A DNA stretch of 25,727 nt, taken from the IMG/VR virus record IMGVR_UViG_3300032291_003527, positions 1-25,727 of that record. The stretch is one strand, 5' to 3'. This document shows, piece by piece, positions 3,424-25,604 of the stretch. A program made the translations under genes and the position numbers. The notes under the pieces were generated by a model, which saw only the letters and a program-made list of their open reading frames with translations, searched no databases and was not told where the DNA came from. Source of the DNA: a virus. Every line of letters starts with the position of its first letter. Positions within the stretch are counted from its first letter, which is position 1.

Positions 3424-3436
3424 TATTTATAAATAT
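3423..3436 (-). promoter_or_regulatory. Second copy of the ATATTTATAAATAA motif at a gene start
   Basis: The minus strand carries ATATTTATAAATAATG, so the 14-base motif runs directly into the ATG of the 797-residue gene. It is identical to the copy at 1012-1025. Because TATAAATA touches the start codon, a T4-type promoter here would initiate inside the gene. This copy therefore favours a role in translation start, or chance in AT-rich DNA, over a promoter for this gene. Confidence 0.25.
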
Positions 3437-3447
3437 TCATTTAATTT

Positions 3448-6105: not shown

Positions 6106-6113
6106 TTTATATT

Positions 6114-7037
6114 TTAGATTGTTGTTACGTTAGTAAATGATTTATTAAAATCAATGCTAGTTCTTTCTTCTCTAACTTCAAATAAAGGCTTACCAGTAAA
6201 CCTATCTTTAATTTCGTATAAGTTGTATTGCTTGTATATGTCGTTATTAAAGTTATAGATAGTATAAATACCATCTTCAAGTGATTTACTTTGATTACCA
6301 AATAAACCGTATGCAAGTGTTTCAATATCATAATCAACCATTTCAACCTCAAGCATTATTGGGTTAAAAAACGTATTGGTTATTATTACTTGTTGGTTTG
6401 GTTGGCCAATAAAAGGCAACGCATTCGGCTTAACATTTGAAGCCGATGAAGGTGATAAGGTACAAAACGTAAGTGTTGAGTTATCATTGAATCTATAACG
6501 AATTGCTTTTTGGTTAGAATTTGTTAAGTTTTGATTTACTGGCTCAGCTCTATTGTTTGATGTGATTACCCTGAAAAAATTATTTATCTTAACATCAGCT
6601 ACCGATTGATTAGGGTTTAAGTATTCAATTCTGTAACCAACCAATCCATTGTTTTCAAACTTTGTTAAAAAATTTTGAGGAACTGCTGATAAATCGAATA
6701 AAACACCAATTGTATCTGGGTATGCTGATAAAACACCAACATCGACTATCTTTGTTCTTATTTCTACTGGCTTTATTATGATACTATAAAAACCCTTGGC
6801 ACCAAAATTAGCGACAGGTAATTTTAACGTATACATACCACCAAATACTTCAAATCCTGTGATGTTTGATTGTGTTTTATTAGGGTTATCTATCTTAAAT
6901 AAGACTTCACTAGGGTTTAATTTAATTAAACTTGTATTGCCAATACTATCTCTTGATGGAGAGTAGTGATAAAAAATTTCTACATCATCGGGTGATATAT
7001 CCGCTGGTCTTACTACACCATATGTTCCTTGACTCAT
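6114..7037 (-). CDS. Hypothetical tail/baseplate protein (307 aa)
   Basis: The start lies five bases after a possible 23-codon mini-gene and the stop eight bases before the next ATG. The protein is beta-rich and neutral, with a single cysteine, no signal peptide and no membrane helix. The N-terminus (YGVVRPADISPDDVEIFYHY) and C-terminus (LYEIKDRFTGKPLFEVREER) look like small structured modules. I do not recognise the family. Its location in an uninterrupted run of baseplate genes suggests a baseplate or tail structural subunit. Confidence 0.75.
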   Translation of the reverse strand: MSQGTYGVVRPADISPDDVEIFYHYSPSRDSIGNTSLIKLNPSEVLFKIDNPNKTQSNITGFEVFGGMYTLKLPVANFGAKGFYSIIIKPVEIRTKIVDVGVLSAYPDTIGVLFDLSAVPQNFLTKFENNGLVGYRIEYLNPNQSVADVKINNFFRVITSNNRAEPVNQNLTNSNQKAIRYRFNDNSTLTFCTLSPSSASNVKPNALPFIGQPNQQVIITNTFFNPIMLEVEMVDYDIETLAYGLFGNQSKSLEDGIYTIYNFNNDIYKQYNLYEIKDRFTGKPLFEVREERTSIDFNKSFTNVTTI

Positions 7038-7042
7038 AATAT

Positions 7043-7114
7043 TTATTTTTTAATAATATTGTTATTTCTTTTATCAACAATTAGTATTTCAACGTTTGTA
7101 AATTCTTTTCTCAT
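7043..7114 (-). CDS. Possible 23-residue mini-protein in an intergenic gap
   Basis: The only sizeable gap in the tail cluster (7038-7132) holds a short frame with an ATG at 7114 and a TAA at 7043-7045, five bases before the next gene. It would encode MRKEFTNVEILIVDKRNNN plus IIKK, a basic peptide with a central hydrophobic stretch. The ATG has an A/T-rich leader like those of its neighbours, and the spacing fits the operon. At this length chance is a serious alternative, and I recognise no family. Confidence 0.3.
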   Translation of the reverse strand: MRKEFTNVEILIVDKRNNNIIKK

Positions 7115-7132
7115 ATTATACTTTTTGTTTTT

Positions 7133-8008
7133 TTATTGTTTTGTTATGTTATACATCCCATTACCATATCTTGTTAATTGACCTAAGTTTTTAATTTCTG
7201 ACAATCTTAAATGCATTTCTAATACAGATGTAACACCTCTGTCTATAAATACATCATTTTTAACTTCTGGTGGAGAAATTATTCCAAATAAATATTCTTC
7301 TTTTGTTAGTGCCGATAATGATACATTAGTTTCATTTCTACCCTGACCTTTAAAGTTTAATCTTGTTACTGGTATAGTATATCTAACACCATCTATAATA
7401 AAGGTATTTGTTATACCAGTATAATCTTTATATGCAATACCACCAGATTGAGAATCAGTACCTATTTTTATATCATTTATAGCATCAAAAGCATATACAT
7501 TAGGTTCCCCAACTGAAACAACCATACTTACACCACTAATACTTTCGTTTTTGTAGTTAAGATAGTCTTCTTTTATCATCTCAAACCCAGGTATATACTT
7601 TTTTAAGTTGTTATATGACTTAAGTTCTTCAATTTTACTATTAGTCTCACCAGTTATTACTAAATTACCGTAATTATAATAGTCAGATGCTTGTTTGTCA
7701 ATGAATCTTATAGTTAATTTATCAGTTTCAGTGTCACCAGTTATATTAAAAGCTGTCGCACCAGTCATAAATGGAAATTTAAGTCCTATACTGGTCAATT
7801 TATTAGTTAAAATTGTATAATCAATATTAGAACTAGATGATGTGTTACCAGAAATATAAGAAATATCTGTAAAGATACCCATATCATCAATATTTTGTGA
7901 TAAAAACACCTTTAAAAAGAATGTGGTAGCAGTTAATTGACCCCAATTAGAGCTATCAGTTCTATCAATACTATCTTCTAGTAATATTTTATATTTAATT
8001 GTCTCCAT
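7133..8008 (-). CDS. Hypothetical tail/baseplate protein (291 aa)
   Basis: The start overlaps the stop of the gene before it (TAATG), which implies coupled translation. There is no cysteine, signal peptide or membrane segment. The N-terminus METIKYKILLEDSIDRTDSS leads into beta-rich sequence with several Gly/Ser/Thr loops. The end, VFIDRGVTSVLEMHLRLSEI followed by NLGQLTRYGNGMYNI, is the most helical part. It could contact another baseplate subunit. The family is not recognised; a structural role is inferred from context only. Confidence 0.75.
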   Translation of the reverse strand: METIKYKILLEDSIDRTDSSNWGQLTATTFFLKVFLSQNIDDMGIFTDISYISGNTSSSSNIDYTILTNKLTSIGLKFPFMTGATAFNITGDTETDKLTIRFIDKQASDYYNYGNLVITGETNSKIEELKSYNNLKKYIPGFEMIKEDYLNYKNESISGVSMVVSVGEPNVYAFDAINDIKIGTDSQSGGIAYKDYTGITNTFIIDGVRYTIPVTRLNFKGQGRNETNVSLSALTKEEYLFGIISPPEVKNDVFIDRGVTSVLEMHLRLSEIKNLGQLTRYGNGMYNITKQ

Positions 8009-8847
8009 TATATTGCTCTTATTTCATATAAATTAACCAAAACCTTATTTGTTGCTTGAAAAACATTATTAAATTGTCCGCTATTTGATAGATTACCATG
8101 ATATCTACTATCTATGGTATAGAAATAACCATTATTTTTTTTAATTAACTTAAATTTAGTATATAATTCATGCACTAAACTATCTATAGGTAACGCTGCG
8201 TTCTTTACCATTAGATTAGTGCTCTTACCAGTCTTAGCGTTTTTAAAGCTTGCTCTCATATAAAGAAATTTGTATTGATTTACTGGTTGCTCATCTTTAT
8301 AATCATATAGATAAAAACCCTCAGTGAATCTATTTTGGTTAAATAATTCAGTTGTTAATACAAAATTTAATGGTATTTGATTAGCTGGTTTTGTTTGACC
8401 GATAGAACTATTAGAATTAGATGAAATTAAATCACTTTGATTTATTTCAGAAAATAAAGTTATATTTGATACTAAATTTTGTGTTAATGGGTTATCTGTA
8501 TCGTAAAAATCTAAGCTTAAAAACGTTTGTTTAAATGTTTCTTTTCTAAATTTAATATCATCATCTGTAAAACCAATAGAACCATAAGTTGTTGAACCGT
8601 TCAAGTCTAAAGAATAAATAATTTCATAAACAGGTTTATTATTTGATGTTATTGGTGAAAATCTAACTTTTTCATAGTCAACTATTGTATTAATTGCTTT
8701 CTCTGTTTCAACATCTACAAATACACGATTAACCAATTCAGATTGGTCAACCATTTGATATTCCATACTAATTGGAATGTTTATGGTTGTGGCTGTTGTA
8801 CCACTAGCCATATTTGATATATTTACCTTAATACTATTAACAAACAT
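8008..8847 (-). CDS. Hypothetical tail/baseplate protein (279 aa)
   Basis: The gene overlaps the end of the 583-residue gene by 11 bases and the start of the next gene by one base, so all three are tightly coupled. A later ATG (residue 13) would remove the overlap, but residues 1-12 (MFVNSIKVNISN) look like a normal first beta strand, so I keep the long form. The protein is beta-rich with no cysteine and no membrane helix. A stretch at about 190-225 is basic and ends in a helix (LPIDSLVHELYTKFKLIKKN). I do not recognise it; a structural role is inferred from the neighbours. Confidence 0.75.
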   Translation of the reverse strand: MFVNSIKVNISNMASGTTATTINIPISMEYQMVDQSELVNRVFVDVETEKAINTIVDYEKVRFSPITSNNKPVYEIIYSLDLNGSTTYGSIGFTDDDIKFRKETFKQTFLSLDFYDTDNPLTQNLVSNITLFSEINQSDLISSNSNSSIGQTKPANQIPLNFVLTTELFNQNRFTEGFYLYDYKDEQPVNQYKFLYMRASFKNAKTGKSTNLMVKNAALPIDSLVHELYTKFKLIKKNNGYFYTIDSRYHGNLSNSGQFNNVFQATNKVLVNLYEIRAI

Positions 8848-10588
8848 CTTCGCTACTATTAAATAAAAAGTTATCGGTCACTCTAACACCTAATGGGTCT
8901 GCTGGAAAATCATAATAATATAAATTCCAAATATTAAAAGGGTCTTGTCTCCTTACATTAAAACAATAATTATTGTAAAGATAATGACATCCGTTTAAAA
9001 ATGGATAATCTAATGCTTTGTCGTTAGATTGATTAGCACCAATTTCTAATAAATCTCTCCATAAATATCTATCACCACCTAAATTAACAGCATAATCTGG
9101 TATACCTACAGTGTATTGGTCACCTTGTTCAATATAATCGGAGAATTCTCTTATTTTAATCAAATGATGTGCTTTATAAAAATAACCCTCTTGTCTTGGA
9201 CCTAAATTTGTTGTTTTCTGTTCAGTATTCGAAACATAAAATGTAATCGAAGGAGAAGTCTCTCTATTAATAGTATTAAATCTATGCGATACTTCAGCTA
9301 GTGTTGTTTCTTTAACTTGTCTTTCATTATACTCTACTAAATCACCATAAAATAAATCATCATTTATGTTGACATCTTGTGTTAATGGATTGTGCGGAAT
9401 AAATGGTGTACCGTTAGCAACACCATTATGTATCTTATTAATAGCTGGTATATCTAATAAATAAGGTATTGAACCGCTTTTATTTAATTCAGGAATAAAA
9501 GGGGTTTCAATACCAGCTGAAACATTAGTAAATAAATTATTACTATCTGTTTTTATTATTGATAAATAAATCTGTGTTAGTGGTCTATTTAGATTATCTT
9601 TCAAATCGCTAATATCAATATCTTCGTTAAAAACAAATTGTGTTATTACATCATTAAAAACATTTTGACTGAAAGATAACTTATACGATTCGTAATCATC
9701 ATTTTCAATCATTTCATAGTTTCTTGTTTTTATTTTTTTAAATAACCTAAAGTAATACTCGGATTCAATCCCATCAACCACTTTTTTTATTCTTGATAAA
9801 CCAGAAATTAAACCTGTTGGTGGTAAATCAACAACAAAATAATACTCCTTTAAAGAACCATCATCTAAGCCTGTCCTAACAACAACATGTTCACCATCAT
9901 ATCCAGTGGTTCCAGTTATCTTAACCGTATCACCTATTATTAAGTTATGGTAACATGCCATAGAAAAAGCAACCATTGTTCTTGTCGCCACAACAGCTGG
10001 TTTCGCTTCAACTATTAACAATCCATTATTCACCATATTGTGTGTCTTATCTGATGAATGAGGATAAGTTATTGTTAAGTTCCAGTTTTTAACTTTTTTT
10101 AGAGTAGAATCATTATATGCTTTTGTGTCTAATTCAAAAGAAAATCTTGTTCTTTTAGGTTCCATATCGTAAAATTTATTTAAACCAGTTTGAGTTAATT
10201 CTGGTGTATAATATCCAAACCATCCATCATTTTCTTTTAAATAAACATTTATATTTTTTGGGTATATTCTATCGTCAAATCTATAATCTAATGTGTTAGG
10301 ATTATAATAATTAAAACCTTTCCAAGTGTATAAATCTAAGATGTTAGAATCATCTAAATTAAATAATGGATTTGACACACTTGAATTTATTGACCCAGTT
10401 ATTCTATAATAAGGGCTTTTTTGTCTTTCATTATTAAAAACATCACCAACGTTTACTATCTTAATGATTTCATCTGGTGGTAATAATTTTTCTTTACCAT
10501 CAATGTTTATTTTTAATAAAGTATCTGTATTAACATTAAGCTTAGATGTCTCTGAATTAAGTATTTTTTGTAGTCTATTTGTACTCAT
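8837..10588 (-). CDS. Hypothetical large tail/baseplate protein (583 aa)
   Basis: It starts one base after the stop of the 1000-residue gene and overlaps the next gene by 11 bases. The N-terminus (LQKILNSETSKLNVNTDTLL) looks helical; most of the rest is beta-rich. Around residues 205-255 there is a barrel-like segment (HNLIIGDTVKITGTTGYDGE, then EYYFVVDLPPTG). The C-terminal 100 residues are aromatic-rich and probably folded tightly (GDRYLWRDLLEIG, PFLNGCHYLYNNYCFNVRRQ), and the chain ends in cysteine. I see no enzyme motif and no membrane segment. The family is unknown to me; a structural role in the tail or baseplate is inferred from position and size. Confidence 0.75.
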   Translation of the reverse strand: MSTNRLQKILNSETSKLNVNTDTLLKINIDGKEKLLPPDEIIKIVNVGDVFNNERQKSPYYRITGSINSSVSNPLFNLDDSNILDLYTWKGFNYYNPNTLDYRFDDRIYPKNINVYLKENDGWFGYYTPELTQTGLNKFYDMEPKRTRFSFELDTKAYNDSTLKKVKNWNLTITYPHSSDKTHNMVNNGLLIVEAKPAVVATRTMVAFSMACYHNLIIGDTVKITGTTGYDGEHVVVRTGLDDGSLKEYYFVVDLPPTGLISGLSRIKKVVDGIESEYYFRLFKKIKTRNYEMIENDDYESYKLSFSQNVFNDVITQFVFNEDIDISDLKDNLNRPLTQIYLSIIKTDSNNLFTNVSAGIETPFIPELNKSGSIPYLLDIPAINKIHNGVANGTPFIPHNPLTQDVNINDDLFYGDLVEYNERQVKETTLAEVSHRFNTINRETSPSITFYVSNTEQKTTNLGPRQEGYFYKAHHLIKIREFSDYIEQGDQYTVGIPDYAVNLGGDRYLWRDLLEIGANQSNDKALDYPFLNGCHYLYNNYCFNVRRQDPFNIWNLYYYDFPADPLGVRVTDNFLFNSSEDVC

Positions 10589-10589
10589 G

Positions 10590-13500
10590 TTAAACGTTTA
10601 TAAATTTTGTAGTTTTGTTACCAACCAAATCTTCACAAATTATTATATATATACCAATATTTAAACCAGTTATTGTCACTTCATAAGGTGAAGAGGTCAC
10701 ATATCCTTCTAAATAATAATTATTTGGACCATATACCTTATAACTATATTTTGGAAAACCATTAGTAAACTTAAAAGTTATAGAATAATTGTTAAAACCA
10801 TTTGATATCGATGAAGTTTCTACTATTAAATCATTTTTTATTTTTGGATTACAAACACTGAAAAACCTTTCATTCATTTTATCCAATGATGTTTTACCAG
10901 GCAATAAACCAAAATACATAAAAAATGAGTGTTTTGGTTGAGAATAACTAGTTGAATTAGCATACCCTCTAAAGTTTATATAATCTTCACCATTATCATT
11001 ATTTCCTGTTGATGCAAAATCATAATTACCTATATTTTTTAAATTAAAACTACTGCTTATATTTTGATAACCTAAGCTTGTATCCGCATTTAATGATAAG
11101 AAAATACTTCTAACATCTTTATTTATATCACTTATTTCATTTTCACCAATCACACAATCAGCTGGTTTTGTAATAGCACCTGTAATAGGGTCTTCAATTG
11201 CTTCATCAATATCAACACCCATTTCACAAATATGTCTTATATTTAAACATTGAGCTTCGTTCATGTGTACACCTAAACAATTAATAGAAAAAAACACACC
11301 GTTACCACCAGCTGGATTAACCATACCACAACTAGAAAGAGTTGACCCGTTATCCAAATATTCACCAACTTCTGATGGTATTTTATAAGATGTTGGTGTT
11401 AAGTATTGTTGAATCTTTGGAACACCTTGCCAATCTTTATTAAAAATTGAACCTAAACAAATTATATCTGTTGCATACAACTTAAATCTTATATCATGTG
11501 TTGTTGCCGCATAATAAAATTCATCATCGTATTTTTTTATTAAACCTTCTTTAATTTTATTACTTTCATTTGTGGATAATTGAGCATTGCCAAATAATAC
11601 ATTATCATTAAAACATGTGTCTAATAATACGCTTTCATAACAACTATTATCTGGGTTTCCATTTTCATTCCCATCAACACCAGAATAATTTGAATATGTT
11701 GTAAAATCTTGACAATCATATTCGCAAAACTTTTCTCTACCCTTACGTTTTTTCTTATATTTTAAAAGAAAACCATAAAGTGTACCATTTACCCAATCAT
11801 TATAAAAATCAAATTGGAAAATATTAAGAGACTTAGCCATTTCTAATGCCATACAATCGTCTAAACCAACTGTTAAACAATCAGGTCTATTATCACAAGT
11901 AAAATTTGCTGGTGTGGTACCACTCATTGATGCATCATAAGCACTACCACTATCAATTATGTTATCAGAGCTACAGCCTGGAGCATAATAACCACCATCA
12001 TCAGAAGGACATCTAACAGTTAAACAAGGTATTAATTCTAGTTTTTCTAAGGTTGGTGTTGTAATGGTTACTAAATTACTTATACCATTAAGTATTGTAT
12101 TTAAAACGTCAATAATAAGATTAACCAATTTGACTATTACGTTTATTAATGGTATGATAGTACTATTCATAAAATAAATCAAAAACGCAATAATCTTTAT
12201 TATAGTACAAATAATAAAGAATATAGGATTGGTAACTGTGTTTGTTCTATTGTATGGGAATGGTGTTTTATCACCAGCACAATTATCAACATTTTTCATA
12301 CCAATCATATTTCTATTTTTAGGGTCAGAATCTTTTTGGTATCTGGCTATAAAATTAGAAACTGTATAAATCTTATTCCAATATAAATCCTTGAAACTTG
12401 TTTGTTTGGTTTTTTCACCAAAATCATAGTCAATCTCAGATGTTGAATTTGGATTATTAGGAACTAAGTATTTGGCTCTGGTTCTAAGTCTGCCTTCACC
12501 TCCGTTATCGTACATACCTATCTTAAACCTAACACTAGCTCTTGTAGGTATACCTACATTTGGGTCATCCGATGGAATTAAATTGCCTGCTTCATCCGTA
12601 ACCACATAGTCTAGATTCATAGGTACTTGATAGGCCCATGTTCCATCCTCATCAATCAATTGACCACCATCAACATCAAATTCTTCAATTGTATCATCAA
12701 CTGTTTTTCTAATCATATTAATGGTACCAACACCTGCAACTTGTTCACACATCTCACCAAGCTTAATTCTTGGTCTACAATTTTTATTTATGCTATGTTT
12801 TTCTTGGTCACCGTATATGCTACCCATAAAAATAGCAGCTGGTGTTAGTGTGTAGTTTAAATCAAAATCTACTCTTGATATACCAATCTGACAAGTATCC
12901 ATGTCACCCCAAAAAGGTTGTACATTAACACCAGCGTTAACTGTTTTTACTTGTGGTAGCTTATCCAGATTTGTACCACCCTTAAACTTTGTTGGTGAAT
13001 CAAATAGCTTAAGTGGTGCACCTTGTCTTATTAAATCATATGGTCTTTGTGATATAATACCAATATCTGAGATATCAACATCAACATGTACGGTATAAGT
13101 ACCAAGTGGTACACCAAACATCATAAAGTCACCAGCATTATTTGTTGTAGTTGTAAATTTATAATATTTACAATACAAATCTAGCATTTCAGAATTATCT
13201 AAAACTTTTCTTTTACTTGGAAAAGAACCTATTGGTGTGTAGCATTCATTATCGCTTTCGTTCGAATCTGGTAATAGGTTATATCTAACCCCGTCAGAAT
13301 TTTTATCAGTTACCGTTTCATATGGATAAAGACCCTTTATTGAAGGATTGCTATTATCAATATCATCAATAGGTATAAAGATACTTACCTTGGCATTTGG
13401 AACCCCGAAGCCACTATTTACGATAACTCTACCAACAACAACACCATAATCAGCACAGAAATTTCTATATACTTCTTCTTGTGTTAATTTTAATGAAAGT

Positions 13501-13592
13501 ATTTCTACAAAATCAAAATCTTGTTCTAAGTTAACCTTTAAATATTTATCACCACCGTTTGGTGTGGTCCTTATTCTTATACTTTTTGACAT
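10590..13592 (-). CDS. 1000-residue multidomain tail protein with internal membrane-like segment
   Basis: Domains seen, in order: residues about 50-172 resemble a carboxypeptidase-regulatory-like beta sandwich, with VVGRVIVNSGFGVPNAKVSI, then NNAGDFMMFGVPLGTYTVHV. Residues 230-410 are beta-rich and unassigned. Residues 456-510 are strongly hydrophobic and long enough for two membrane passes (NPIFFIICTIIKIIAFLIYF at the start, then a second apolar helix after a proline at 481). A cysteine-rich region follows at about 523-790, with a basic patch KYKKKRKGREK at 611-621. Residues about 930-1000 resemble a SprB-type repeat (GFPKYSYKVYG, ITGLNIGIYIIICEDLVGNK). It lies just downstream of the gp25/gp6 wedge genes and a small membrane protein. 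A tail or baseplate part that touches or enters a membrane is my inference; the coding call is sure. Confidence 0.8.
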   Translation of the reverse strand: MSKSIRIRTTPNGGDKYLKVNLEQDFDFVEILSLKLTQEEVYRNFCADYGVVVGRVIVNSGFGVPNAKVSIFIPIDDIDNSNPSIKGLYPYETVTDKNSDGVRYNLLPDSNESDNECYTPIGSFPSKRKVLDNSEMLDLYCKYYKFTTTTNNAGDFMMFGVPLGTYTVHVDVDISDIGIISQRPYDLIRQGAPLKLFDSPTKFKGGTNLDKLPQVKTVNAGVNVQPFWGDMDTCQIGISRVDFDLNYTLTPAAIFMGSIYGDQEKHSINKNCRPRIKLGEMCEQVAGVGTINMIRKTVDDTIEEFDVDGGQLIDEDGTWAYQVPMNLDYVVTDEAGNLIPSDDPNVGIPTRASVRFKIGMYDNGGEGRLRTRAKYLVPNNPNSTSEIDYDFGEKTKQTSFKDLYWNKIYTVSNFIARYQKDSDPKNRNMIGMKNVDNCAGDKTPFPYNRTNTVTNPIFFIICTIIKIIAFLIYFMNSTIIPLINVIVKLVNLIIDVLNTILNGISNLVTITTPTLEKLELIPCLTVRCPSDDGGYYAPGCSSDNIIDSGSAYDASMSGTTPANFTCDNRPDCLTVGLDDCMALEMAKSLNIFQFDFYNDWVNGTLYGFLLKYKKKRKGREKFCEYDCQDFTTYSNYSGVDGNENGNPDNSCYESVLLDTCFNDNVLFGNAQLSTNESNKIKEGLIKKYDDEFYYAATTHDIRFKLYATDIICLGSIFNKDWQGVPKIQQYLTPTSYKIPSEVGEYLDNGSTLSSCGMVNPAGGNGVFFSINCLGVHMNEAQCLNIRHICEMGVDIDEAIEDPITGAITKPADCVIGENEISDINKDVRSIFLSLNADTSLGYQNISSSFNLKNIGNYDFASTGNNDNGEDYINFRGYANSTSYSQPKHSFFMYFGLLPGKTSLDKMNERFFSVCNPKIKNDLIVETSSISNGFNNYSITFKFTNGFPKYSYKVYGPNNYYLEGYVTSSPYEVTITGLNIGIYIIICEDLVGNKTTKFINV

Positions 13593-16223: not shown

Positions 16224-18377
16224 TTAACTTGAACAACCAAAACATTCAAATTGGCTATCCTTTGGCTTTTTAATCACGTTTACTTGGCTGGAAGCTAGCT
16301 TTGCATTTGCATCTAACTTTGATTTTGTCCTGGTGTAATAAACCCCAGTTTTTAAACCACCCTTCCAAGCATACATTAAAGCACTGGCTATCTTAGCATA
16401 CTTAGCATCAGAATGATATACGTTTAACGATTGTGATTGGTCAACGTACTTGTTTCTGATAATGGCTAAATCAAGTAGCACTCTTTGCGGTATTTCCCAA
16501 ACATCTTTATATCTATATCTTATATCCTCAGGTATTTCAACTATATTTTGGATACTTCCCTTGTTTCTTAATACCTTATCAACCATTTCAGAATTCCATA
16601 GTTCATTTTCAATTAACTCGTTAACCAAGTATTTGTTTACAACTAAGAATTCACCTTGACCTACTCTTCTACTAAATAAATTAGCTGTTGCTGGTTCAAA
16701 TGATTCAAATACGCTTAATAAGATTGCCGATGAAGCTGTTGGCATCAAGCCTAATAAAAGACTATTGTACATAGGAATTGGTTGACCCTCAGGCAATGGT
16801 GACCATCCCTCAATATAAGTTTCACCTTTTGAATAAGGACTACCTGCCCAACTAGGGTAATTAACTTTGTTTTCTACCGCTAGTCTCATTGATTCCTCAA
16901 CAGCTGCTTTGTACATTGTTTCAAAGATATCCTTGTTCCATTGCTTAGCTTCTTCGCTTTCGAAAGATATCTTTTTTTTAGCAAAGAAATCAGCTAATCC
17001 AGCAACACCTATTGCTAGGGCTCTTTGATGAAGACCAGCATTTTCACTCCATTCATCAGACCATTTGTTTTTATCAATCACCTTATTTAAGCTCTTAACT
17101 AAAATCTTAGTTGTCTTAGTAATTGATTCTAGTGTTGAATGCTCTGCTAAATTAACCGAAGCTAGGGTACATTGCGGTGTATAAGTTGGCTTAGATGCTT
17201 GCATAACTTCAATACATAAGTTAGATTGTTTAATCAAGCCTATGTTTTTTTGCATGTTACGCTTATTAGCGTTGTCCTTGAACATAACGTATGGTCTACC
17301 ACTTTCAACTTGTGATTTGATAACCATATCAAAGATATCCTTAGGGTCAACCTTCTTACCTAACCCTAAATCAACAGCTTTTTGATACTCAATGTTAAAT
17401 TCTTCACCGAATAAATTATATAGTGGTCTTAACCCAGCTTTCTTAATGTCATTTGGGCAAAACAAATACCAGTCTTCACCTTTTTCTAATTTCTCCATGA
17501 ATAAGTCATTTACAACAACCGAAGTAAATAAATCACGAGTTCTCATTTGTTCATCACCAATCGGTAGAGTTAACTCTAAGAAATCAAAGATATCTCTATG
17601 CCATAATGATAAGTACAATGCGCAACTACCAGAACGTGAACCCTGCTTGTAAAAACGCATCTTAGATTGAACCATATCCGCTAATCTAATAACACCACCA
17701 GCATTACCTTGGAATGATTCTACTAAGCTATCCTTGCTTCTTAATGGGTCGATTAATAAACCGATACCAGAACCTTCTTTTGATGCAGATGAAATCTTAG
17801 TAAGCGTATTTTCAATACCTTCAAAAGAATCCTCCTCTAAATGAGTTAAGTTACAGCTAATCATACCACCTCTTTTATCGATACCAGCATTTGTATATGT
17901 TGGTGTGGCAAAGTTACCTCTTTTATTAGTTAGCTCTTCTAATAATTCGTTTTTATTTACTTCATCTTCACCAAACAAATAATTTGCAACTCTTAGATAC
18001 ATGCATGAAGGTAATTCTACAGGTGTTTTGAACTCGTCTTTCATTGAATATTTTGTCAAGAAAGTAGTTGCAGCAAAAAAGTCATAAGTCATATCTACTA
18101 GCTGTAATTCTTTGCCAATCAATTTAGATTGACGGCTCAATAGAATTCTACCACCTAACAATGAATAATCTGGGTGTTGAATAATCTTATCAGCAGCTTT
18201 AAAAGCTATGATTTCATCAATCTCAGTGGTTGTAATGTTATCACTTATTAGCGGAACTACTTCTTGGAATAATGAATCTGAATCCACCTTTAATCCATTA
18301 GCTTGCGTTTTAATCCTACTTAGGATTTTGTTAGGCATAAAAGCCTGCGTTGTTTTATCTCTTTTTAAAATTCTCAT
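16224..18377 (-). CDS. nrdA: Class Ia ribonucleoside-diphosphate reductase, large subunit (717 aa)
   Basis: It reduces ribonucleoside diphosphates to deoxy forms with the NrdB subunit. Residues 1-90 form an ATP-cone (MRILKRDKTTQAFMPNKILS onward), the activity switch bound by ATP/dATP. The active-site residues are all visible: C175 in SCNL and C403 in QCTLAS as the reducing pair, N386/C388/E390 in SNLCIEV as the radical centre, Y680-Y681 in GVYYTRTK for radical transfer, and MPTASS near 546. The chain ends in ECFGCSS, whose C712/C715 pair would pass electrons from thioredoxin or glutaredoxin. The two-residue spacing resembles eukaryotic tails more than the E. coli one. At 717 residues it is somewhat short. 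It follows nrdB by six bases and ends at a strong terminator. No reductant gene is in the window. Confidence 0.96.
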   Translation of the reverse strand: MRILKRDKTTQAFMPNKILSRIKTQANGLKVDSDSLFQEVVPLISDNITTTEIDEIIAFKAADKIIQHPDYSLLGGRILLSRQSKLIGKELQLVDMTYDFFAATTFLTKYSMKDEFKTPVELPSCMYLRVANYLFGEDEVNKNELLEELTNKRGNFATPTYTNAGIDKRGGMISCNLTHLEEDSFEGIENTLTKISSASKEGSGIGLLIDPLRSKDSLVESFQGNAGGVIRLADMVQSKMRFYKQGSRSGSCALYLSLWHRDIFDFLELTLPIGDEQMRTRDLFTSVVVNDLFMEKLEKGEDWYLFCPNDIKKAGLRPLYNLFGEEFNIEYQKAVDLGLGKKVDPKDIFDMVIKSQVESGRPYVMFKDNANKRNMQKNIGLIKQSNLCIEVMQASKPTYTPQCTLASVNLAEHSTLESITKTTKILVKSLNKVIDKNKWSDEWSENAGLHQRALAIGVAGLADFFAKKKISFESEEAKQWNKDIFETMYKAAVEESMRLAVENKVNYPSWAGSPYSKGETYIEGWSPLPEGQPIPMYNSLLLGLMPTASSAILLSVFESFEPATANLFSRRVGQGEFLVVNKYLVNELIENELWNSEMVDKVLRNKGSIQNIVEIPEDIRYRYKDVWEIPQRVLLDLAIIRNKYVDQSQSLNVYHSDAKYAKIASALMYAWKGGLKTGVYYTRTKSKLDANAKLASSQVNVIKKPKDSQFECFGCSS

Positions 18378-18383
18378 ATCTTA

Positions 18384-19337
18384 TTAAAATTCTTCATCAA
18401 AAACTCCATCCATAGTCTTAGGGATATCAATTCTAGTGTATTCACCTTCTCTCTTTTCAAAAAAGTTATTCTTAGATGATAAACCTATTCTTGACATGTA
18501 TTCCAATGGATTGCTTATATTAAACTCTACCTCACAACCGAAATCATTCAATACAATATCAGTAACATATTGAACATATTTAACCATGTCATCCTTTGTT
18601 AAGCCTTGTAAACCATCTGGCATACTTTCTTCAACAAAAACCTTCTCAACTTCATAACAACTTAGAATTATTTTTCTAATTTCTTCATTGCTCAATTTGT
18701 ATTCGTCCTTTAAGTAGTTATTGTACAAATTTAAAGCAAATTCATAATGGAAGGTTTCATCTCTTAGGATTAACTCATTCATAGCCGCCAAGCCAGGCAT
18801 TTTATTTCTGCTTCTAAACCAGAATACACCTGAAAACACGCTAGAAAAGGCTATACCCTCAACACAAGCAAATGCTATTAATCTGTGTGCAAATGAAGGG
18901 TGCGAAATCCATTTTTCACTCCATTCAGCCTTTTTATTAACGGCCTTGTTGGTTTCCATTGAATTGAATAATTCGTCTTTTTCAAATAAATTCTTTACGA
19001 AAGTGTCTATTAGTAAAGAATAACCATTAGCGTGAACTTGTTCGATAAATGTTTGGTGCCCGTAAAAATACTGAGCTTCTAAGATTTCAACCTCATTTAA
19101 AAAATTGGTTGCTAAATTATCGATAACCAAGCCATCAGAAATAGCAAAAAATGCTAGGATATTCTTTAGGTATAGTTTTTCGTTATCTTTAAGTTCATCG
19201 AACTTATCTTTGCTTAAGTCTGTTTCTTCAGCTACCCAAGTCTGAGACTCAGCTTTCTTATACATTTGCCACAAATCATTATGAATGATTGGGAAAATTG
19301 AGTATCTTTTTTTTAGTGTTTTATCTTTTAAGTACAT
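18384..19337 (-). CDS. nrdB: Class Ia ribonucleotide reductase, small (diiron-tyrosyl) subunit (317 aa)
   Basis: This subunit makes and holds the tyrosyl radical used by NrdA. All metal ligands are present: D40 (AEETDLSKD), E99 and H102 (IEQVHANGY), E160 (CVEGIAF), and E194 and H197 (RDETFHYEF). The radical tyrosine is Y106. The motifs FFAISDGLVIDNL and EAQYFYGHQ follow the eukaryote-like branch. The chain ends in DGVFDEEF, a short acidic-aromatic tail of the kind that docks into NrdA. I chose the ATG at 19337 (MYLKDKTLKKRYSIFP). It sits four bases after the helicase stop, whereas an ATG at 19382 would overlap the helicase by 41 bases and add 15 unusual residues. Confidence 0.95.
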   Translation of the reverse strand: MYLKDKTLKKRYSIFPIIHNDLWQMYKKAESQTWVAEETDLSKDKFDELKDNEKLYLKNILAFFAISDGLVIDNLATNFLNEVEILEAQYFYGHQTFIEQVHANGYSLLIDTFVKNLFEKDELFNSMETNKAVNKKAEWSEKWISHPSFAHRLIAFACVEGIAFSSVFSGVFWFRSRNKMPGLAAMNELILRDETFHYEFALNLYNNYLKDEYKLSNEEIRKIILSCYEVEKVFVEESMPDGLQGLTKDDMVKYVQYVTDIVLNDFGCEVEFNISNPLEYMSRIGLSSKNNFFEKREGEYTRIDIPKTMDGVFDEEF

Positions 19338-19341
19338 AATA

Positions 19342-21840
19342 TTAAATATCTCCTGTTTCTCTTTTCTGCTTACCAGCATCAAATAATGTTGTTATATATT
19401 GTTGTTGTTCAACCAATTTTTCTTCTTTGTGGTGAACGAGTGATTTGTATTCCTTACTGACAGTCATATCTATCTGCATCGTAGCATTATTAAACGTAAT
19501 ATCTTCAAATATAATACCATCTGAACCAAATCTTGACTTAAGAATAGCCATGGTTGCGGTGCCAGCATTTTTTTGGTCTATGGTTCTAGCGATTGAAACA
19601 ATAAAGTGGCCGATTTGACCCTTCTTAATAGAACCACCCATTTGGTCAGATTCAACAACGCTGGCCTTGATTGAACTTCTATTGCCTTGTACTGCTGTCC
19701 AACCTGCTATGTCTAATTCAGCTAACATAGCTTCAAATTGTCGCATTACGCTACCTTCACCAGCATTAACATCTTCATAGTGCTTAGATGGTACAACACA
19801 ATCAATATAGTCTAATAAAACGATATCTGGTCTAAAACCCTCTGAAATCTTCTTTCTGACGTATTGTCTAATCATTGGCATGGTTGTACCATCACTAGAA
19901 AACTTTTTAAGCTTTAAAACACCCCTATTGGTTTTTTTATCCTTTTTGCTTTCACACAAATTAATTAATTCCTCTTTATGCTCGGATAAAGAATTTAATT
20001 CAATACCAGTCCAACAAGATAGGTGCTTTCTTTGAATGACCTTTGGATTATCCTCAAAAAATATCTGTAAAACGTTGTAACCATCGTTAACTGCTGTGTT
20101 AGCAATCTTGGTAATCATTGTTGTGTTATGTGTAACAATAAAATCATCAGTAACAAATAAATGTTCATCATTATCAACCATTATACACGTAGCTTCTTCA
20201 TCATGTGAGTATTCTATTGATTTTATAAATTTATTATTTTCATATTTAAGTCTATTAACTACTCTATCATTTTTTCTACTTAATTTGAAAGGAATTATTT
20301 TATTTTTTTCTGGGAAAGATATTGTTAATTTGTAAGCTTTTTTACCAGTTTTTTTAATACCTTTATAAGTATATGTTGGAAATTTACTAGATAATTTACA
20401 AAAACCACCTAATGATAAAACTAACCATCTAACATTTTCAATTAATTCTTTTGATGTGCTGACATATTCAATACCACCATTTTTTCTAACATTACCATCA
20501 GTATCTAATAAACCCCTAAGAAGTTCAAGCCTATTCTCTATCGAATTATAAAGATATTGACTTGGAATAAATTTAGTATCAGATTTTTTATCATATAAAC
20601 CCAAAGATTTTAATTTATCAGTAATCCCATAAATACAAACATCAAATAAACACTCTTGAACTAAAATATTACTTTTATCAATATCTCTACACTTTTCTTT
20701 AATTGAAATATTTACAGAATTAGTTCGACTAACTTCATCAGCTATTTCAATATCTTTAGTTGTAAATCTAGATGATTTCATATAACCATCACCTAACATA
20801 ACACCCAAAACATATGGATTTATTGGTAATTCTCTTTCATTAAATTCAACTGGTTCTACCATTGGTATCTTAAAATTTAACGATTTTTTACTTCCAAAAG
20901 TTAGTTTGTTAATTAAATCTGATGTTTTAATAACTTTAAATGAATTATCTGGTTCTAATTTAATTCTTTTCCCATCTTTCCACGATGAACGATTTCGTTG
21001 GTTTATACTATTAACTGACCACAAATGTTCTTCATCACAAAAAGTAAAAGTACCATCATTAAAACTAATCTTAAAAATTGGTCTATTACCTTGTGGGTAA
21101 ACACCAATAACATTAGTTTCTTTACCGTTTCTACCAAATACTTTATCATTAACTTTTATATCACCCATTAATTTGTAACCTTCTGGTGTGTAAATTATAT
21201 TTGAATTAGGTAAAGCTTTTCCAACACCAAATGGTGCTAAAATGATTGCCAGTTCACCCTTAGATAAACCACCGTTCATCTTTTCATCAAGACCACCGAT
21301 TCCAGTTCTAATAGGTTTTCTAAAGTCATCTATTAGAACTTCATTTATGTTATCAAATACATCCATACCATCATCGTTAACATCACCATGTTCTAATGCT
21401 TTCCTAAGAATCGTTTCGGATTGGTCATAGTTTTCTATATCACCTTTGTCGATTATGTTTTGGATTTGTTTAATTGATTTTTTTAGTTCTTGATGCTTGC
21501 AAAATTTCATTGCAATATCCTGAACCTTTAAAGAGTCATATAAATCTACCTCTTTAATCTTGCTTAAGGTCTTAATTACGTATTTTTGTTGAATCTCATC
21601 CTTAACATCTTCTAATAACCTAAATTCTATACTGCCAATATCTGGAACAATATCATCTTTAAGCTTAGCTTCCTTAAGGGTCGCAACCATAACACGTAAG
21701 TAAGGGTCCTCAAAATAGTTTGGGTCCAAGATATCAATAATAGAGTTAGCAAACTTCCTATCAGTAAGGACTTGTGCTAATAATCTATTCTGATAATCAA
21801 TACCCAAATAAGATAAATCGTTTTTATTTATTTTAATCAT
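19342..21840 (-). CDS. dnaB: Replicative DNA helicase, DnaB/gp41-like, with intein in the P-loop (832 aa precursor)
   Basis: The mature helicase would be residues 1-208 joined to 573-832, 468 residues in total, close to T4 gp41 (475). The N-terminal part (1-150) is the helical DnaB-N-like domain. The ATPase core starts with IRTGIGGLDEKMNGGLSKGE, the usual lead into the P-loop. Rejoined, the P-loop reads APFGVGK-TTMI, a full Walker A motif; the intein sits exactly between the lysine and the threonine. Walker B is PDIVLLDYIDCV at 671-682. Later, SDQMGGSIKKGQIGHFIVSI and ILKSRFGSDG match the hexamer-helicase C-domain motifs. It unwinds the fork ahead of the phage polymerase. It lies between the 166-residue protein and nrdB with gaps of 14 and 4 bases. 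Without splicing the ATPase site would be broken. Confidence 0.95.
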   Translation of the reverse strand: MIKINKNDLSYLGIDYQNRLLAQVLTDRKFANSIIDILDPNYFEDPYLRVMVATLKEAKLKDDIVPDIGSIEFRLLEDVKDEIQQKYVIKTLSKIKEVDLYDSLKVQDIAMKFCKHQELKKSIKQIQNIIDKGDIENYDQSETILRKALEHGDVNDDGMDVFDNINEVLIDDFRKPIRTGIGGLDEKMNGGLSKGELAIILAPFGVGKALPNSNIIYTPEGYKLMGDIKVNDKVFGRNGKETNVIGVYPQGNRPIFKISFNDGTFTFCDEEHLWSVNSINQRNRSSWKDGKRIKLEPDNSFKVIKTSDLINKLTFGSKKSLNFKIPMVEPVEFNERELPINPYVLGVMLGDGYMKSSRFTTKDIEIADEVSRTNSVNISIKEKCRDIDKSNILVQECLFDVCIYGITDKLKSLGLYDKKSDTKFIPSQYLYNSIENRLELLRGLLDTDGNVRKNGGIEYVSTSKELIENVRWLVLSLGGFCKLSSKFPTYTYKGIKKTGKKAYKLTISFPEKNKIIPFKLSRKNDRVVNRLKYENNKFIKSIEYSHDEEATCIMVDNDEHLFVTDDFIVTHNTTMITKIANTAVNDGYNVLQIFFEDNPKVIQRKHLSCWTGIELNSLSEHKEELINLCESKKDKKTNRGVLKLKKFSSDGTTMPMIRQYVRKKISEGFRPDIVLLDYIDCVVPSKHYEDVNAGEGSVMRQFEAMLAELDIAGWTAVQGNRSSIKASVVESDQMGGSIKKGQIGHFIVSIARTIDQKNAGTATMAILKSRFGSDGIIFEDITFNNATMQIDMTVSKEYKSLVHHKEEKLVEQQQYITTLFDAGKQKRETGDI
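20125..21216 (-). mobile_element. Class 3 intein with LAGLIDADG homing endonuclease, in the helicase gene
   Basis: The insert runs from Ala209 to Asn572 of the precursor (364 residues), followed by Thr573 of the helicase. Block A (ALPNSNIIYTPEG, GDIKVNDKVFG) starts with alanine, so the usual first-residue nucleophile is absent. The class 3 triad is present: W274 two residues after H272 in CDEEHLW (block B), C552 in ATCIMVD (block F), and T570 in VTHN (block G). This class uses the block F cysteine as first nucleophile and Ser/Thr as the +1 residue; here it is Thr. The endonuclease motifs are VLGVMLGDG (D351) and LRGLLDTDG (D448), both with the catalytic aspartate. The intein looks more AT-rich than its host gene: 12 and 13 G/C of 60 in two sampled lines (20281, 20641) against 19 and 25 of 60 in two extein lines (19801, 19561). 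This fits separate ancestry. Confidence 0.93.
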
Positions 21841-22367: not shown

Positions 22368-23408
22368 TTATTCTCTTGTTATTAGTTTTTTAAATGGAAT
22401 CAGATAATCTGGGTATCTATTCTCACCTATTATTTTGTCTAGACCATCTCTTTCCATCATCTTAAGAACATTCTTTAAATCTCTATTGGTATCGTTTAAT
22501 GAACCATTCATTAATTCATTTAACTCATCAATAGCATCTTCAGTGATAAGCGGTTTTTTTAAATTGATTAGAATTTCGTTTATTTCATAAATCTTTTCTT
22601 TTTGAACACCAATGGTTGTTCGGTTAATAATATTGTCTAGCACCTTAATAGGCTTCTTTTTAGAACTTATACGTTCTGCTTGTTTTAACTTCGCTAAATC
22701 TATTAGTTCGTTGATAGTTACTTCCCTTTCTTTTAACTCTGGAAATAAGGTAACCAATTTTTTTTCACCAACCCCTTGAATACCTTTGATTGAATCGGAA
22801 ACATCACCGTTGATGATTTTAACCAATAAGGAGTTTGATTGATTAAAGCAAAAATACGAAGAAAAATTCGATGCGTCAACATAAACCTTCAAATCTAGAA
22901 AATAAATTCTTATGTCATTGGAAATTAACTGACAAAAATCTCTATCAGTAGAAACAATCGTTATGTTTTCGTTTTCTTTTTTATTAAGACAATAGTATGC
23001 TATGAAATCGTCAGATTCAACAACTTCATGCTTAAGTTGTCTTATGTACATTTCGTTTAAGTATTCCCAAATTACAATCCTTTGTTGTAATTCAGATTCG
23101 TCAACAGGGTGGGTACCATTTATGAAGTCTTTACCTCTATCACTTTTGTATGGTTCATACACTTCATATCTTAATTTACCGCTAAGATTACCATCCCAAA
23201 ATACATATACCTTGTGGTATAAGTCTTCGGTTAGAATCTTTCGTAGTATTGTTAAGAAGGAATATAAACCACCAACGTGTTGACCGTGGTGGTTATATTG
23301 ATTCTTGGCCCCGAAAAAACCATGCTTAAACAAGGCATTTCCGTCAACCAAAAGAGTATTTTGTTTTTTCTCTATAATTTCACCATTACGTGGTGGTCTC
23401 TTATTCAC
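22368..23408 (-). CDS. rnh: 5'-3' exonuclease / flap nuclease, T4 RNase H-like (346 aa)
   Basis: A FEN-family metal nuclease, which in T4 removes RNA primers and flaps from lagging strands. The acidic residues that hold two metal ions are visible: D22 (LLVDGNALFKHG), D72 (VFWDGN), E131/D133/D134 (VVESDDFIAYY), D155/D157 (VSTDRDF), and D202/D205 (NGDVSDSIKGI). The last motif continues into QGVGEKK, the helix-three-turn-helix that grips DNA. The C-terminal 100 residues are helical and charged. The start is GTG at 23408: an overlapping ATG (23410) is followed at once by TGA, and an in-frame TAA lies a few codons upstream. It follows uvsX by 25 bases. Whether it also acts as a dedicated exonuclease in recombination cannot be told. 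Confidence 0.93.
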   Translation of the reverse strand: MNKRPPRNGEIIEKKQNTLLVDGNALFKHGFFGAKNQYNHHGQHVGGLYSFLTILRKILTEDLYHKVYVFWDGNLSGKLRYEVYEPYKSDRGKDFINGTHPVDESELQQRIVIWEYLNEMYIRQLKHEVVESDDFIAYYCLNKKENENITIVSTDRDFCQLISNDIRIYFLDLKVYVDASNFSSYFCFNQSNSLLVKIINGDVSDSIKGIQGVGEKKLVTLFPELKEREVTINELIDLAKLKQAERISSKKKPIKVLDNIINRTTIGVQKEKIYEINEILINLKKPLITEDAIDELNELMNGSLNDTNRDLKNVLKMMERDGLDKIIGENRYPDYLIPFKKLITRE

Positions 23409-23433
23409 ATTTAATAATTAAATGGTTAATAAA

Positions 23434-24561
23434 TTAATCTTTTTCGTATGCGTTTTCATCTAAATCATCAATATCAACATCGAATGATTCGAAATCAGTA
23501 TTCAATTTAGCATTAATGAAATCTTTCTTTTCTTTAACATAGTTATTCTTATCCGCTGGATTTAAGAAACCATGAGGTGTAGAGCAAATGCTACCCATTA
23601 ATTCGATACCATTTACGTGGTTCTTTACACATTCAATATCTGTTAAGACACCAAATTGATAGCTTCTACCACCATTAACAGCACTTAATTTCTTAGCACT
23701 AGATGTTGATTTACCACCCATATGGAAAATCATACGTACACCATATTTAAAACCCTCACCACCATTATGCATAATTGTTGGTTGACCTACAGCGTTTGGT
23801 CTTAACCAAATTTTTTGTACCGTCACAAATGTATTAATGTATTTTGAAGATTCTCTTCTTGATGCTGGAATTCTGTAGTTAAGAATTGATTCGAATTCTC
23901 TCTTTAAAGCACCAGCTGTCCATTGATTGTTATTGGTGTTTGAAACAGCACCTTGGTAGCAACCAATTGAACCGATTGAATCCCAAAGGAATGTGATGTT
24001 GTATGGGAATTCACCTTTAGCTTGTTTATCTAAGATTTCATTCATCAAACGAGCGATGTCTTCAACAACTGGAACAAATCTTTGCGGTTCAGTTTTCATC
24101 TTAGAATCTTTATAATCGTAATTTTGGTATAATGACAATAAATCTTGTCCACCAAAGTACATAAAGTCTGGTCCATCATAATCAATAACCTCACCAGTTT
24201 CTTCATCATAAATTTCATCAAAATTAAAACCAACTAATTTAGCATGTTCCCAATTAAATGAACCCTCAGTGTCAATAATGATACAATAATCACCTAATTT
24301 TTGAGCACCAGCAAGTGTTTCGTAAATACCAGTTGATTTACCAACGTCAGAAAAACCTCTAAATTGTGTTGTGTAACCTCTTGGTACGCCTGGTACGCCA
24401 ACTGCATCATGGAACGCTTTTTTAAATGGAATCCAAGCCAATTCTTTCTCTTTAACGATTTGAGAACCAAGACCCATATTTTTCTTAAACTCTTTATTGT
24501 CAAACGGTTTTTTACCGATAGGAGAACTTTCTCCGTCTTTTTTAGTTGGTTTTTTACTCAT
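23434..24561 (-). CDS. uvsX: RecA-like recombinase, UvsX family (375 aa)
   Basis: It forms filaments on single-stranded DNA and pairs it with duplex, driving recombination-dependent replication and repair. Walker A is GFSDVGKST at 69-77. Walker B is NITFLWDSIGSIG at 188-200, with the acidic residue D194. DTEGSFNWEHA at 97-107 follows the RecA-fold pattern of a catalytic acidic residue after the second strand. The end is strongly acidic (DVDIDDLDENAYEKD), as in RecA and UvsX, where it tunes access to DNA. Length is close to T4 UvsX (391). The gene follows the ssb terminator directly, so its expression probably depends on readthrough; I find no convincing promoter between them. The first 30 residues are lysine-rich and polar. 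Confidence 0.94.
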   Translation of the reverse strand: MSKKPTKKDGESSPIGKKPFDNKEFKKNMGLGSQIVKEKELAWIPFKKAFHDAVGVPGVPRGYTTQFRGFSDVGKSTGIYETLAGAQKLGDYCIIIDTEGSFNWEHAKLVGFNFDEIYDEETGEVIDYDGPDFMYFGGQDLLSLYQNYDYKDSKMKTEPQRFVPVVEDIARLMNEILDKQAKGEFPYNITFLWDSIGSIGCYQGAVSNTNNNQWTAGALKREFESILNYRIPASRRESSKYINTFVTVQKIWLRPNAVGQPTIMHNGGEGFKYGVRMIFHMGGKSTSSAKKLSAVNGGRSYQFGVLTDIECVKNHVNGIELMGSICSTPHGFLNPADKNNYVKEKKDFINAKLNTDFESFDVDIDDLDENAYEKD

Positions 24562-24575
24562 AATTTAAATTTTTT

Positions 24576-24604
24576 AGTAAAAAAAAAGGCGATTCCTCAC
24601 CTTT
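24576..24604 (-). terminator. Hairpin terminator or attenuator between ssb and uvsX
   Basis: On the minus strand AAAGGTGA and TCGCCTTT pair over eight bases (one G-T pair) across a GGAA loop of the GNRA type, and at least eight T follow. It lies 29 bases after the ssb stop and only 15 bases before the uvsX start. Partial readthrough would give much ssb and less of the downstream genes, in line with the large amounts of gp32 that T4 makes. Confidence 0.82.
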
Positions 24605-24632
24605 CTTTTTATTTTGAATAAAACACTAAACC

Positions 24633-25523
24633 TTAAAACGGTAAATCATCTGATTCGTCTTGAACTACAGGTTCTGATTGTGTTGTAGAAGCAACAATGT
24701 TGTTCTTAACAGTTTCAACACCAATAGTCAATTCACTTTCCATTGTCTTGTTAGCATCAGCCTTAGCAATAGAAGCTTTGTCAACATAACAATTAGCTTC
24801 TTTATCCCAAACTGGAATACCACCCTTAACAATTATTTCTAAATAGTTGTAGTTCTTAACAGCGTAAACCTTATCCCATGTTGTCGTGTTAGCTAACCAT
24901 TCAGCCTTTTTTGTTTCATCTTCAGATAACGGAGTAGCATCTAAAGAAGCAACAGCTGAAACAATAGGTATATTGTTTTGATTTCTGTTAATTGTTAACA
25001 CTAAATCACGACCTGTTTCTGGGTGTGTAACATCTTTTTTAATAGCGTTCAATACACCGATGATTTTATCATAGATTCCCTCTTTACGGTAATCATGTGC
25101 GAATCTCCAAAACTTAACACCATCTTGTTCGTTATCTCTATCGATAACCTTAACGATGTACATCAATCTAGCGTTGTAGTTCTTAGCTAATTCTTTGTCT
25201 GTTTCTTTACCTGTAGAATACAACAATTCACGTGTTTCACAGAAAGGACATGGCTCATTCTTTTCATGCTTTAAACATGGAAATGTCTTAGTTTCACCAT
25301 CAACCTTAATCTTGTGACCATAGAACTGAACAAAAGGTGAAGAACCATCAGCAGTAGGTAGTATTCTAATTGTCTTAGTCGCTGTTTTAATCTCATCTTT
25401 AATGTAAGTTGTGAAATAGTTCTTCAAGTCATAAACATTAGAAGTCTTGCTTTCACCCTTAGGTTTGTTGTTTGTTTCGTACTGTGCTAACATAGCACTT
25501 AATGCATCTTTTTCGTTACTCAT
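24633..25523 (-). CDS. 32: Single-stranded DNA-binding protein, T4 gp32-like (296 aa)
   Basis: It coats single-stranded DNA and organises the fork. The zinc site matches gp32: H70, C83, C92 and C95 with spacing H-x12-C-x8-C-x2-C (in T4 gp32 it is H-x12-C-x9-C-x2-C). Aromatic-rich OB-fold segments follow (KFWRFAHDYRKEG, WDKVYAVKNYNYLEI). The C-terminal tail is polar and ends in ESDDLPF, which looks like the acidic tip of bacterial SSB, a docking site for partner proteins. I placed the start at ATG 25523 (MSNEKDALSAML). An in-frame ATG at 25604 would add 27 basic residues and lies on the promoter's -35 element. It is the first gene of the replication block. Confidence 0.94.
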   Translation of the reverse strand: MSNEKDALSAMLAQYETNNKPKGESKTSNVYDLKNYFTTYIKDEIKTATKTIRILPTADGSSPFVQFYGHKIKVDGETKTFPCLKHEKNEPCPFCETRELLYSTGKETDKELAKNYNARLMYIVKVIDRDNEQDGVKFWRFAHDYRKEGIYDKIIGVLNAIKKDVTHPETGRDLVLTINRNQNNIPIVSAVASLDATPLSEDETKKAEWLANTTTWDKVYAVKNYNYLEIIVKGGIPVWDKEANCYVDKASIAKADANKTMESELTIGVETVKNNIVASTTQSEPVVQDESDDLPF

Positions 25524-25574
25524 TTTGTTTTTTTTTAATTTATATTGTTTGTTATTTTTCCTATTTTGTTTATA

Positions 25575-25604
25575 CAAATATACTAAAATTTTAGAAAAAG
25601 TCAA
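25575..25604 (-). promoter_or_regulatory. Bacteroidota-type promoter before ssb (proximal)
   Basis: On the minus strand TTG (25604-25602) is followed after 19 bases by TATATTTG (25582-25575), a full match to the TAnnTTTG -10 element used by the primary sigma factor of Bacteroidota. The start of ssb lies about 50 bases downstream. A host-type promoter means the block can be transcribed as soon as the DNA enters the cell. Confidence 0.8.

Follow-up and report, generated by a model that had tools for sequence, protein, structure and literature searches.

A putative class 3 intein with a LAGLIDADG endonuclease domain in the Walker A motif of a gp41/DnaB-type phage helicase, and comparative evidence for its mobility

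The DNA analyzed in this study, referred to as the window, comprises 25,727 nucleotides of the virus record IMGVR_UViG_3300032291_003527 (IMG/VR). Within the window, a replicative helicase gene interrupted in frame by a putative intein was observed between an upstream replication module and two genes encoding ribonucleotide reductase. The features of this region are as follows:

16224-18377, minus strand: ribonucleotide reductase large subunit, uninterrupted (PF02867, E=2.4e-147)
18384-19382, minus strand: ribonucleotide reductase small subunit, the downstream neighbour, whose listed open reading frame overlaps the 3' end of the helicase gene by 41 bases (PF00268, E=1.4e-79)
19342-21840, minus strand: precursor open reading frame of 832 aa, encoding a gp41/DnaB-type replicative helicase interrupted in frame by the intein (PHROG and PDB matches)
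19342-20124, minus strand: C-extein, residues 573-832, beginning with TTMITK (second half of Walker A, Thr at +1), stop codon included
20125-21216, minus strand: predicted class 3 intein of 364 aa with a LAGLIDADG endonuclease domain (residues, profile alignment, Pfam, structure model)
20125-20133, minus strand: block G, Thr362-His363-Asn364 (G5-G7; profile alignment)
20185-20187, minus strand: Cys344 in block F (F4), predicted to act as the initiating nucleophile, invariant, opposite Cys124 of MchDnaB1 and Cys118 of MsmDnaBi1
20494-20523, minus strand: LAGLIDADG motif 2, LLRGLLDTDG, with Asp240, within the Pfam LAGLIDADG_3 match
20785-20814, minus strand: LAGLIDADG motif 1, YVLGVMLGDG, with Asp143
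21019-21027, minus strand: block B HLW, His64 (B10) to Trp66 (B12), with W66 opposite W67 of MchDnaB1 and MsmDnaBi1
21214-21216, minus strand: Ala1, the first intein residue, which offers no nucleophile at position 1 (replaced by Ser in the homologues L009, L010, L013, L019 and L080)
21217-21840, minus strand: N-extein, residues 1-208, ending in APFGVGK (first half of Walker A; zero-gap joins in 77 intein-free homologues)
22368-25604, minus strand: upstream replication module with a 5'-3' exonuclease (22368-23408), a RecA/UvsX-like protein (23434-24561) and a gp32 single-stranded DNA-binding protein (24633-25604)

The 832-aa open reading frame matched the DnaB-like replicative helicase family phrog_19 (E=6.6e-41), and the C-extein was best matched in the PDB by 8due and 8dtp (E about 7e-4), two entries for DnaB-like replicative helicases that correspond to T4 gp41. 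Based on these matches, the host protein is classified as a replicative helicase of the T4 gp41/DnaB type. The insert splits Walker A between Lys208 and Thr573 of the precursor, exactly as claimed in the preliminary description of this DNA. Since the two exteins join without any gap at APFGVGK|TTM in 77 related helicases that are empty at this site, the insert boundaries are empirical and go beyond a reading of motifs. Excision of the 364-aa insert is predicted to yield a product of 468 aa with Walker A restored as GVGKTT, and the coordinates, residue numbers and product length given previously are all correct. No further interruptions were seen among the helicase relatives, whose exteins align through.

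The intein matched Pfam LAGLIDADG_3 (PF14528) above the cut-off. Both LAGLIDADG aspartates, D143 and D240, are present in the window intein, as had been described, and also in its close copies. Two aspartates alone are insufficient to predict an active enzyme; it is the retention of the motifs together with the pattern of spread that suggests endonuclease activity. In a homologue inserted at the same site (L012, positions 3001-4071), the second aspartate is replaced by tyrosine (LLQGLMDTYG), and all splicing residues are kept. The endonuclease of this homologue is probably dead, and loss of the aspartate while the splicing residues persist is as the homing cycle predicts.

In order to evaluate mobility, intein and extein divergence were compared. 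Three other gp41-type helicases (L002, L005 and L006) carry the intein of the window at 88-94% nucleotide identity, whereas their exteins are only 67-71% identical to those of the window. Relative to the window, synonymous divergence amounts to dS values of 0.23-0.63 for these inteins, whereas values for the exteins range from 1.27 to saturation. Identity at 4-fold sites is 0.62-0.80 for the inteins and 0.48-0.53 for the exteins, the latter being near the chance value of 0.42. Moreover, identity rises and falls in steps at both intein junctions. Within one lineage (L006 vs L008), dS reaches 0.28 in the N-extein and 0.01 in the intein. Among close copies, the intein shows dN/dS values of 0.07-0.15, indicating purifying selection.

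The 80 nearest helicase relatives were gathered without regard to intein presence; five are occupied and 75 are empty at the same site. Occupied and empty helicases interleave in the extein tree, where the four helicases with close inteins are separated by empty alleles. Forcing these four together lowered the log-likelihood by 290 and was rejected (p-AU 4e-42) in a topology test based on a quick tree. In the intein tree, the inteins of the window, L002, L005 and L006 form a clade with 100% support. Furthermore, the near-sisters L005 (occupied) and L027 (empty) have exteins that are 94% identical at the amino acid level. All 12 gp41-site inteins likewise form one clade with 100% support, and the deep pairs L012/L013 and L074/L080 agree on the extein and intein trees. 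The consequence expected from homing is thus visible as near-identical inteins in helicases diverged to synonymous saturation, combined with a patchy distribution of occupied and empty alleles. These comparisons support recent movement of the intact element between related phages, in agreement with the earlier suggestion of an active homing element, the activity of its endonuclease being predicted. Most simply, this pattern is read as a single old arrival of the intein at the gp41 site, after which it spread by homing between related phages. The comparative evidence for mobility is what is new here.

A splicing-competent intein with an inactive endonuclease, whose present copies were spread by ordinary phage recombination, is considered unlikely. 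No co-conversion tract was seen, and within 60 bp of the site occupied alleles are no closer to the window than empty ones, which is in line with such passive spread, as is the loss of the second LAGLIDADG aspartate (D to Y) in the relative L012. The absence of this trace may mean that transfer left little mark on the flanks or that the flanks have since diverged. However, the window intein and its close copies have kept both aspartates, and the transferred segment goes no further than the intein, an outcome that would not be favoured by ordinary recombination. The discordance between intein and extein might also be ascribed to assembly chimeras or to stronger purifying selection on the intein, and all close relatives compared are indeed metagenomic contigs. 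Yet the same pairings of extein and intein recur in independent contigs (L002/L003/L004, L005/L011 and L006/L007), and selection at the protein level alone cannot lower synonymous or 4-fold divergence, so that this account is given very little credence. Homing-mediated transfer between related phages therefore remains the preferred reading. The gp41-site alleles represent a natural data set for phage intein homing, since they offer occupied and empty versions of one essential gene, the near-sisters L005 and L027, and homologues with Ala1 or Ser1.

Regarding the splicing class, residues of the precursor were converted to intein numbering (A209 = residue 1, W274 = W66, C552 = C344, T570 = T362, N572 = N364, with Thr573 at +1). 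When a profile built from 18 homologous inteins was aligned with sequences from the PDB, W66, C344 and T362 fell opposite the WCT triplet of MchDnaB1 (6rix) and MsmDnaBi1 (6bs8), two class 3 inteins of known structure. The preliminary description had placed Ala1, W274, C552, T570 and the +1 Thr at exactly these positions and had set such a profile alignment beforehand as a refuting test; W66 and C344 fell in register at B12 and F4, and the assignment was not refuted. The 18 aligned inteins, down to 37% identity, all share residues H64, W66, C344, T362, H363 and N364, and the WCT triplet was found in 36 of 37 inteins examined from phages of many hosts. Since the residues are conserved to this extent, the signature is not attributable to chance. 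The only exception is the class 1-like intein of Salmonella phage St162.

Position 1 is Ala in the window intein and Ser in five same-site homologues (L009, L010, L013, L019 and L080), which keep the full WCT triplet where their sequence is complete. Such swapping of Ala and Ser, with C344 invariant, fits a position 1 that does not act as the nucleophile. The combination of Ser1 and WCT was reportedly termed a 'mixed' kind of class 3 intein by Tori and Perler in 2011. From its sequence, the insert is accordingly classified as a class 3 intein. Alternatively, it might be class 2-like (or formerly class 1), with Thr+1 attacking the N-terminal junction directly and Cys344 being dispensable, as Ala at position 1 also occurs in class 2 and some homologues carry Ser1. 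This is highly improbable in view of the full WCT, which aligns residue by residue with class 3 inteins of known structure, the invariance of C344 among homologues, the placement of the window intein among WCT-bearing relatives, and the 'mixed' kind mentioned above, into which Ser1 with WCT would fall.

The AlphaFold (AF2) model of the intein reached a mean pLDDT of 92.7 and a pTM of 0.90. It superposes over its whole length on PI-SceI (333 residues, Z 27.5). The modelled splicing domain aligned to 6bs8 with Z 20.2 and an rmsd of 1.5 Å over 123 residues and to 6rix with Z 19.9, rmsd values versus class 3 inteins being 1.5-1.9 Å. As modelled, the window intein thus has a Hint fold like that of solved class 3 inteins.

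In class 3 inteins, splicing starts at Cys F4, and transesterification to residue +1 is followed by cyclisation of Asn and an acyl shift (PMC5222942; PMC7664689). This pathway is proposed for the window intein because its residues and its fold, read together with the published biochemistry, point to it. Cys344 would attack the Lys208-Ala1 peptide bond, giving a block F branched thioester, and the N-extein would then be transferred to Thr573 (+1). Cyclisation of Asn364 and an O-N acyl shift would release the 468-aa helicase with an intact Walker A. The precursor, in which Walker A is split, is expected to be without ATPase activity; absence of this activity was shown for the precursor of the P-loop intein of Pyrococcus RadA, as cited in PMC6195587. 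At the DNA level, the LAGLIDADG domain would cleave the corresponding site in helicase alleles that lack the intein, and in co-infected cells a phage carrying the intein would serve as template for repair of the break. A degenerate, non-splicing intein in a phage that is a dead genome or uses another helicase has a precedent in Arthrobacter Arth_1007 (PMC3196547), but can practically be dismissed given that all catalytic residues are present, the frame is open, close copies show the low dN/dS reported above and the helicase lies within an intact replication operon. Taken as a whole, residues, model and comparisons argue with high confidence for a full-length class 3 intein in Walker A of a gp41/DnaB-type helicase that moves as a homing element, splicing and cleavage being predicted.

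Every aligned gp41-site intein has kept Cys60 (window positions 21037-21039), which adjoins the block B DxxH; of the other inteins, many, though not all, have it too. A redox toggle of the Cys48-Cys118 type known from DnaBi1 was ruled out, the equivalent of Cys48 being Ile47 in the window intein. Conditional splicing, for example redox-sensitive splicing with Cys60 pairing with Cys344, might delay phage replication until conditions suit and would make the intein more than a parasite; this is regarded as quite improbable.

Relatives of the window intein were detected in 772 records of the phage collection. These records span many phyla and comprise phages of Mycobacterium, Salmonella, Vibrio, Klebsiella, Pseudomonas, Enterococcus and further hosts, Bacteroides and crAss-like phages, and a Methanosarcina virus. 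The nearest are same-site inteins of related gp41-type phage helicases (94-45% identical), followed beyond the gp41 site by inteins of phages of Proteus, Salmonella, Vibrio, Methanosarcina and Bacteroides and of crAss-like phages. The same-site inteins on IMG/VR contigs (L002-L013, L019, L043, L054, L074 and L080) share the extein, the K|T site, WCT and LAGLIDADG with the window intein, are 45-94% identical and belong to the one fully supported (100%) clade; they differ in having Ala or Ser at position 1 and, in L012, in lacking the second catalytic Asp. MsmDnaBi1 and MchDnaB1 (6bs8, 6rix) are likewise class 3 inteins in replicative helicases, with splicing domains at 1.5-1.9 Å from the model, and DnaBi1 also sits in the P-loop (PMC6195587). 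However, both are mini-inteins without endonuclease, and DnaBi1 has Ser at +1 and its redox partner Cys48 where the window intein has Ile. The inteins of Bacteroides phage BS-TP3 (L113) and of the TerL of crAss-like cr111_1 (L108) resemble the window intein in the WCT triplet, the two LAGLIDADG aspartates and their occurrence in Bacteroidota phages, but reside in other exteins and are about 35-38% identical. Class 3 inteins in Bacteroidota phages are therefore already in public records. TerL inteins of delta crAss-like phages have been published, their class being unstated in the accessible part of the paper (PMC7886860). In a partial literature search, no papers describing a gp41-site intein in Bacteroidota phages were found.

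Mycobacteriophage TerL1-a inteins likewise separate the invariant Walker A residues Lys and Thr, but interrupt a terminase, and identity to the window intein is only 24-33% for the sampled mycobacteriophage inteins. PI-SceI (yeast VMA intein, 1ef0/1lws) shares the Hint splicing domain and the LAGLIDADG endonuclease over the whole length, but is class 1 (Cys1), interrupts another host protein, has a longer chain and is 18% identical. The Lys|Thr insertion in the P-loop was termed 'classic', and class 3 inteins were common in the mycobacteriophage set analyzed (PMC5050341). A collection from public proteins published in 2020 contained 1701 class 3 inteins, 82.5% of them with LAGLIDADG motifs (PMC7891396), and a phage origin has been proposed for the class (PMC3196547). 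Knowledge of class 3 inteins is thus unchanged by the window intein, as their large number, their association with phages and their frequent occurrence in P-loops had been established before. The intein of Salmonella phage St162 (L124, 2001-3023), which interrupts a helicase at a P-loop of sequence GSGK, has neither Trp(B12) nor Cys(F4) and is class 1-like; P-loop sites in phages are thus used by both intein classes.

The preliminary description also implied a special link with actinobacterial phages. An actinobacterial affinity is unsupported by the intein tree, in which the nearest relatives are gp41-site inteins; grouping of the gp41 clade with the intein of mycobacteriophage Colt is not formally rejected (p-AU 0.06). 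Hence, that part of the earlier interpretation was not supported, whereas class 3 assignment, K|T insertion, mobility and a probable Bacteroidota phage were. In evolutionary terms, the window intein is better viewed as homing within a T4-like phage lineage, against the background of an old phage-wide family, than as a link between Actinobacteria and Bacteroidota.

The gene order ssb-recA-exonuclease-helicase-nrdB-nrdA equals that in Flavobacterium phage immuto, and among the phage records searched, the window recombinase has detectable relatives only in four immuto records. No Shine-Dalgarno sequences were seen at the start codons of the window, and start codons without such sequences are typical of Bacteroidota. 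The window represents a T4-like phage that probably infects Bacteroidota, the host phylum proposed earlier, this placement being based on synteny and missing Shine-Dalgarno sites and not on an isolate. Megablast of the window against phage isolates gave no match. Large open reading frames of the tail/baseplate region (up to 1000 aa) occupy window positions 1030-13592 without PHROG matches, and for the 1000-aa frame no protein-level relative was found in the phage collection. Finally, two contigs, one labelled as a Prochlorococcus single-cell genome and one as a Spirochaetes MAG (L105 and L106), encode gp41-type helicases whose C-exteins are 60-62% identical to that of the window; they probably represent phage DNA in those assemblies and hint at a wide host range of the phage clade.
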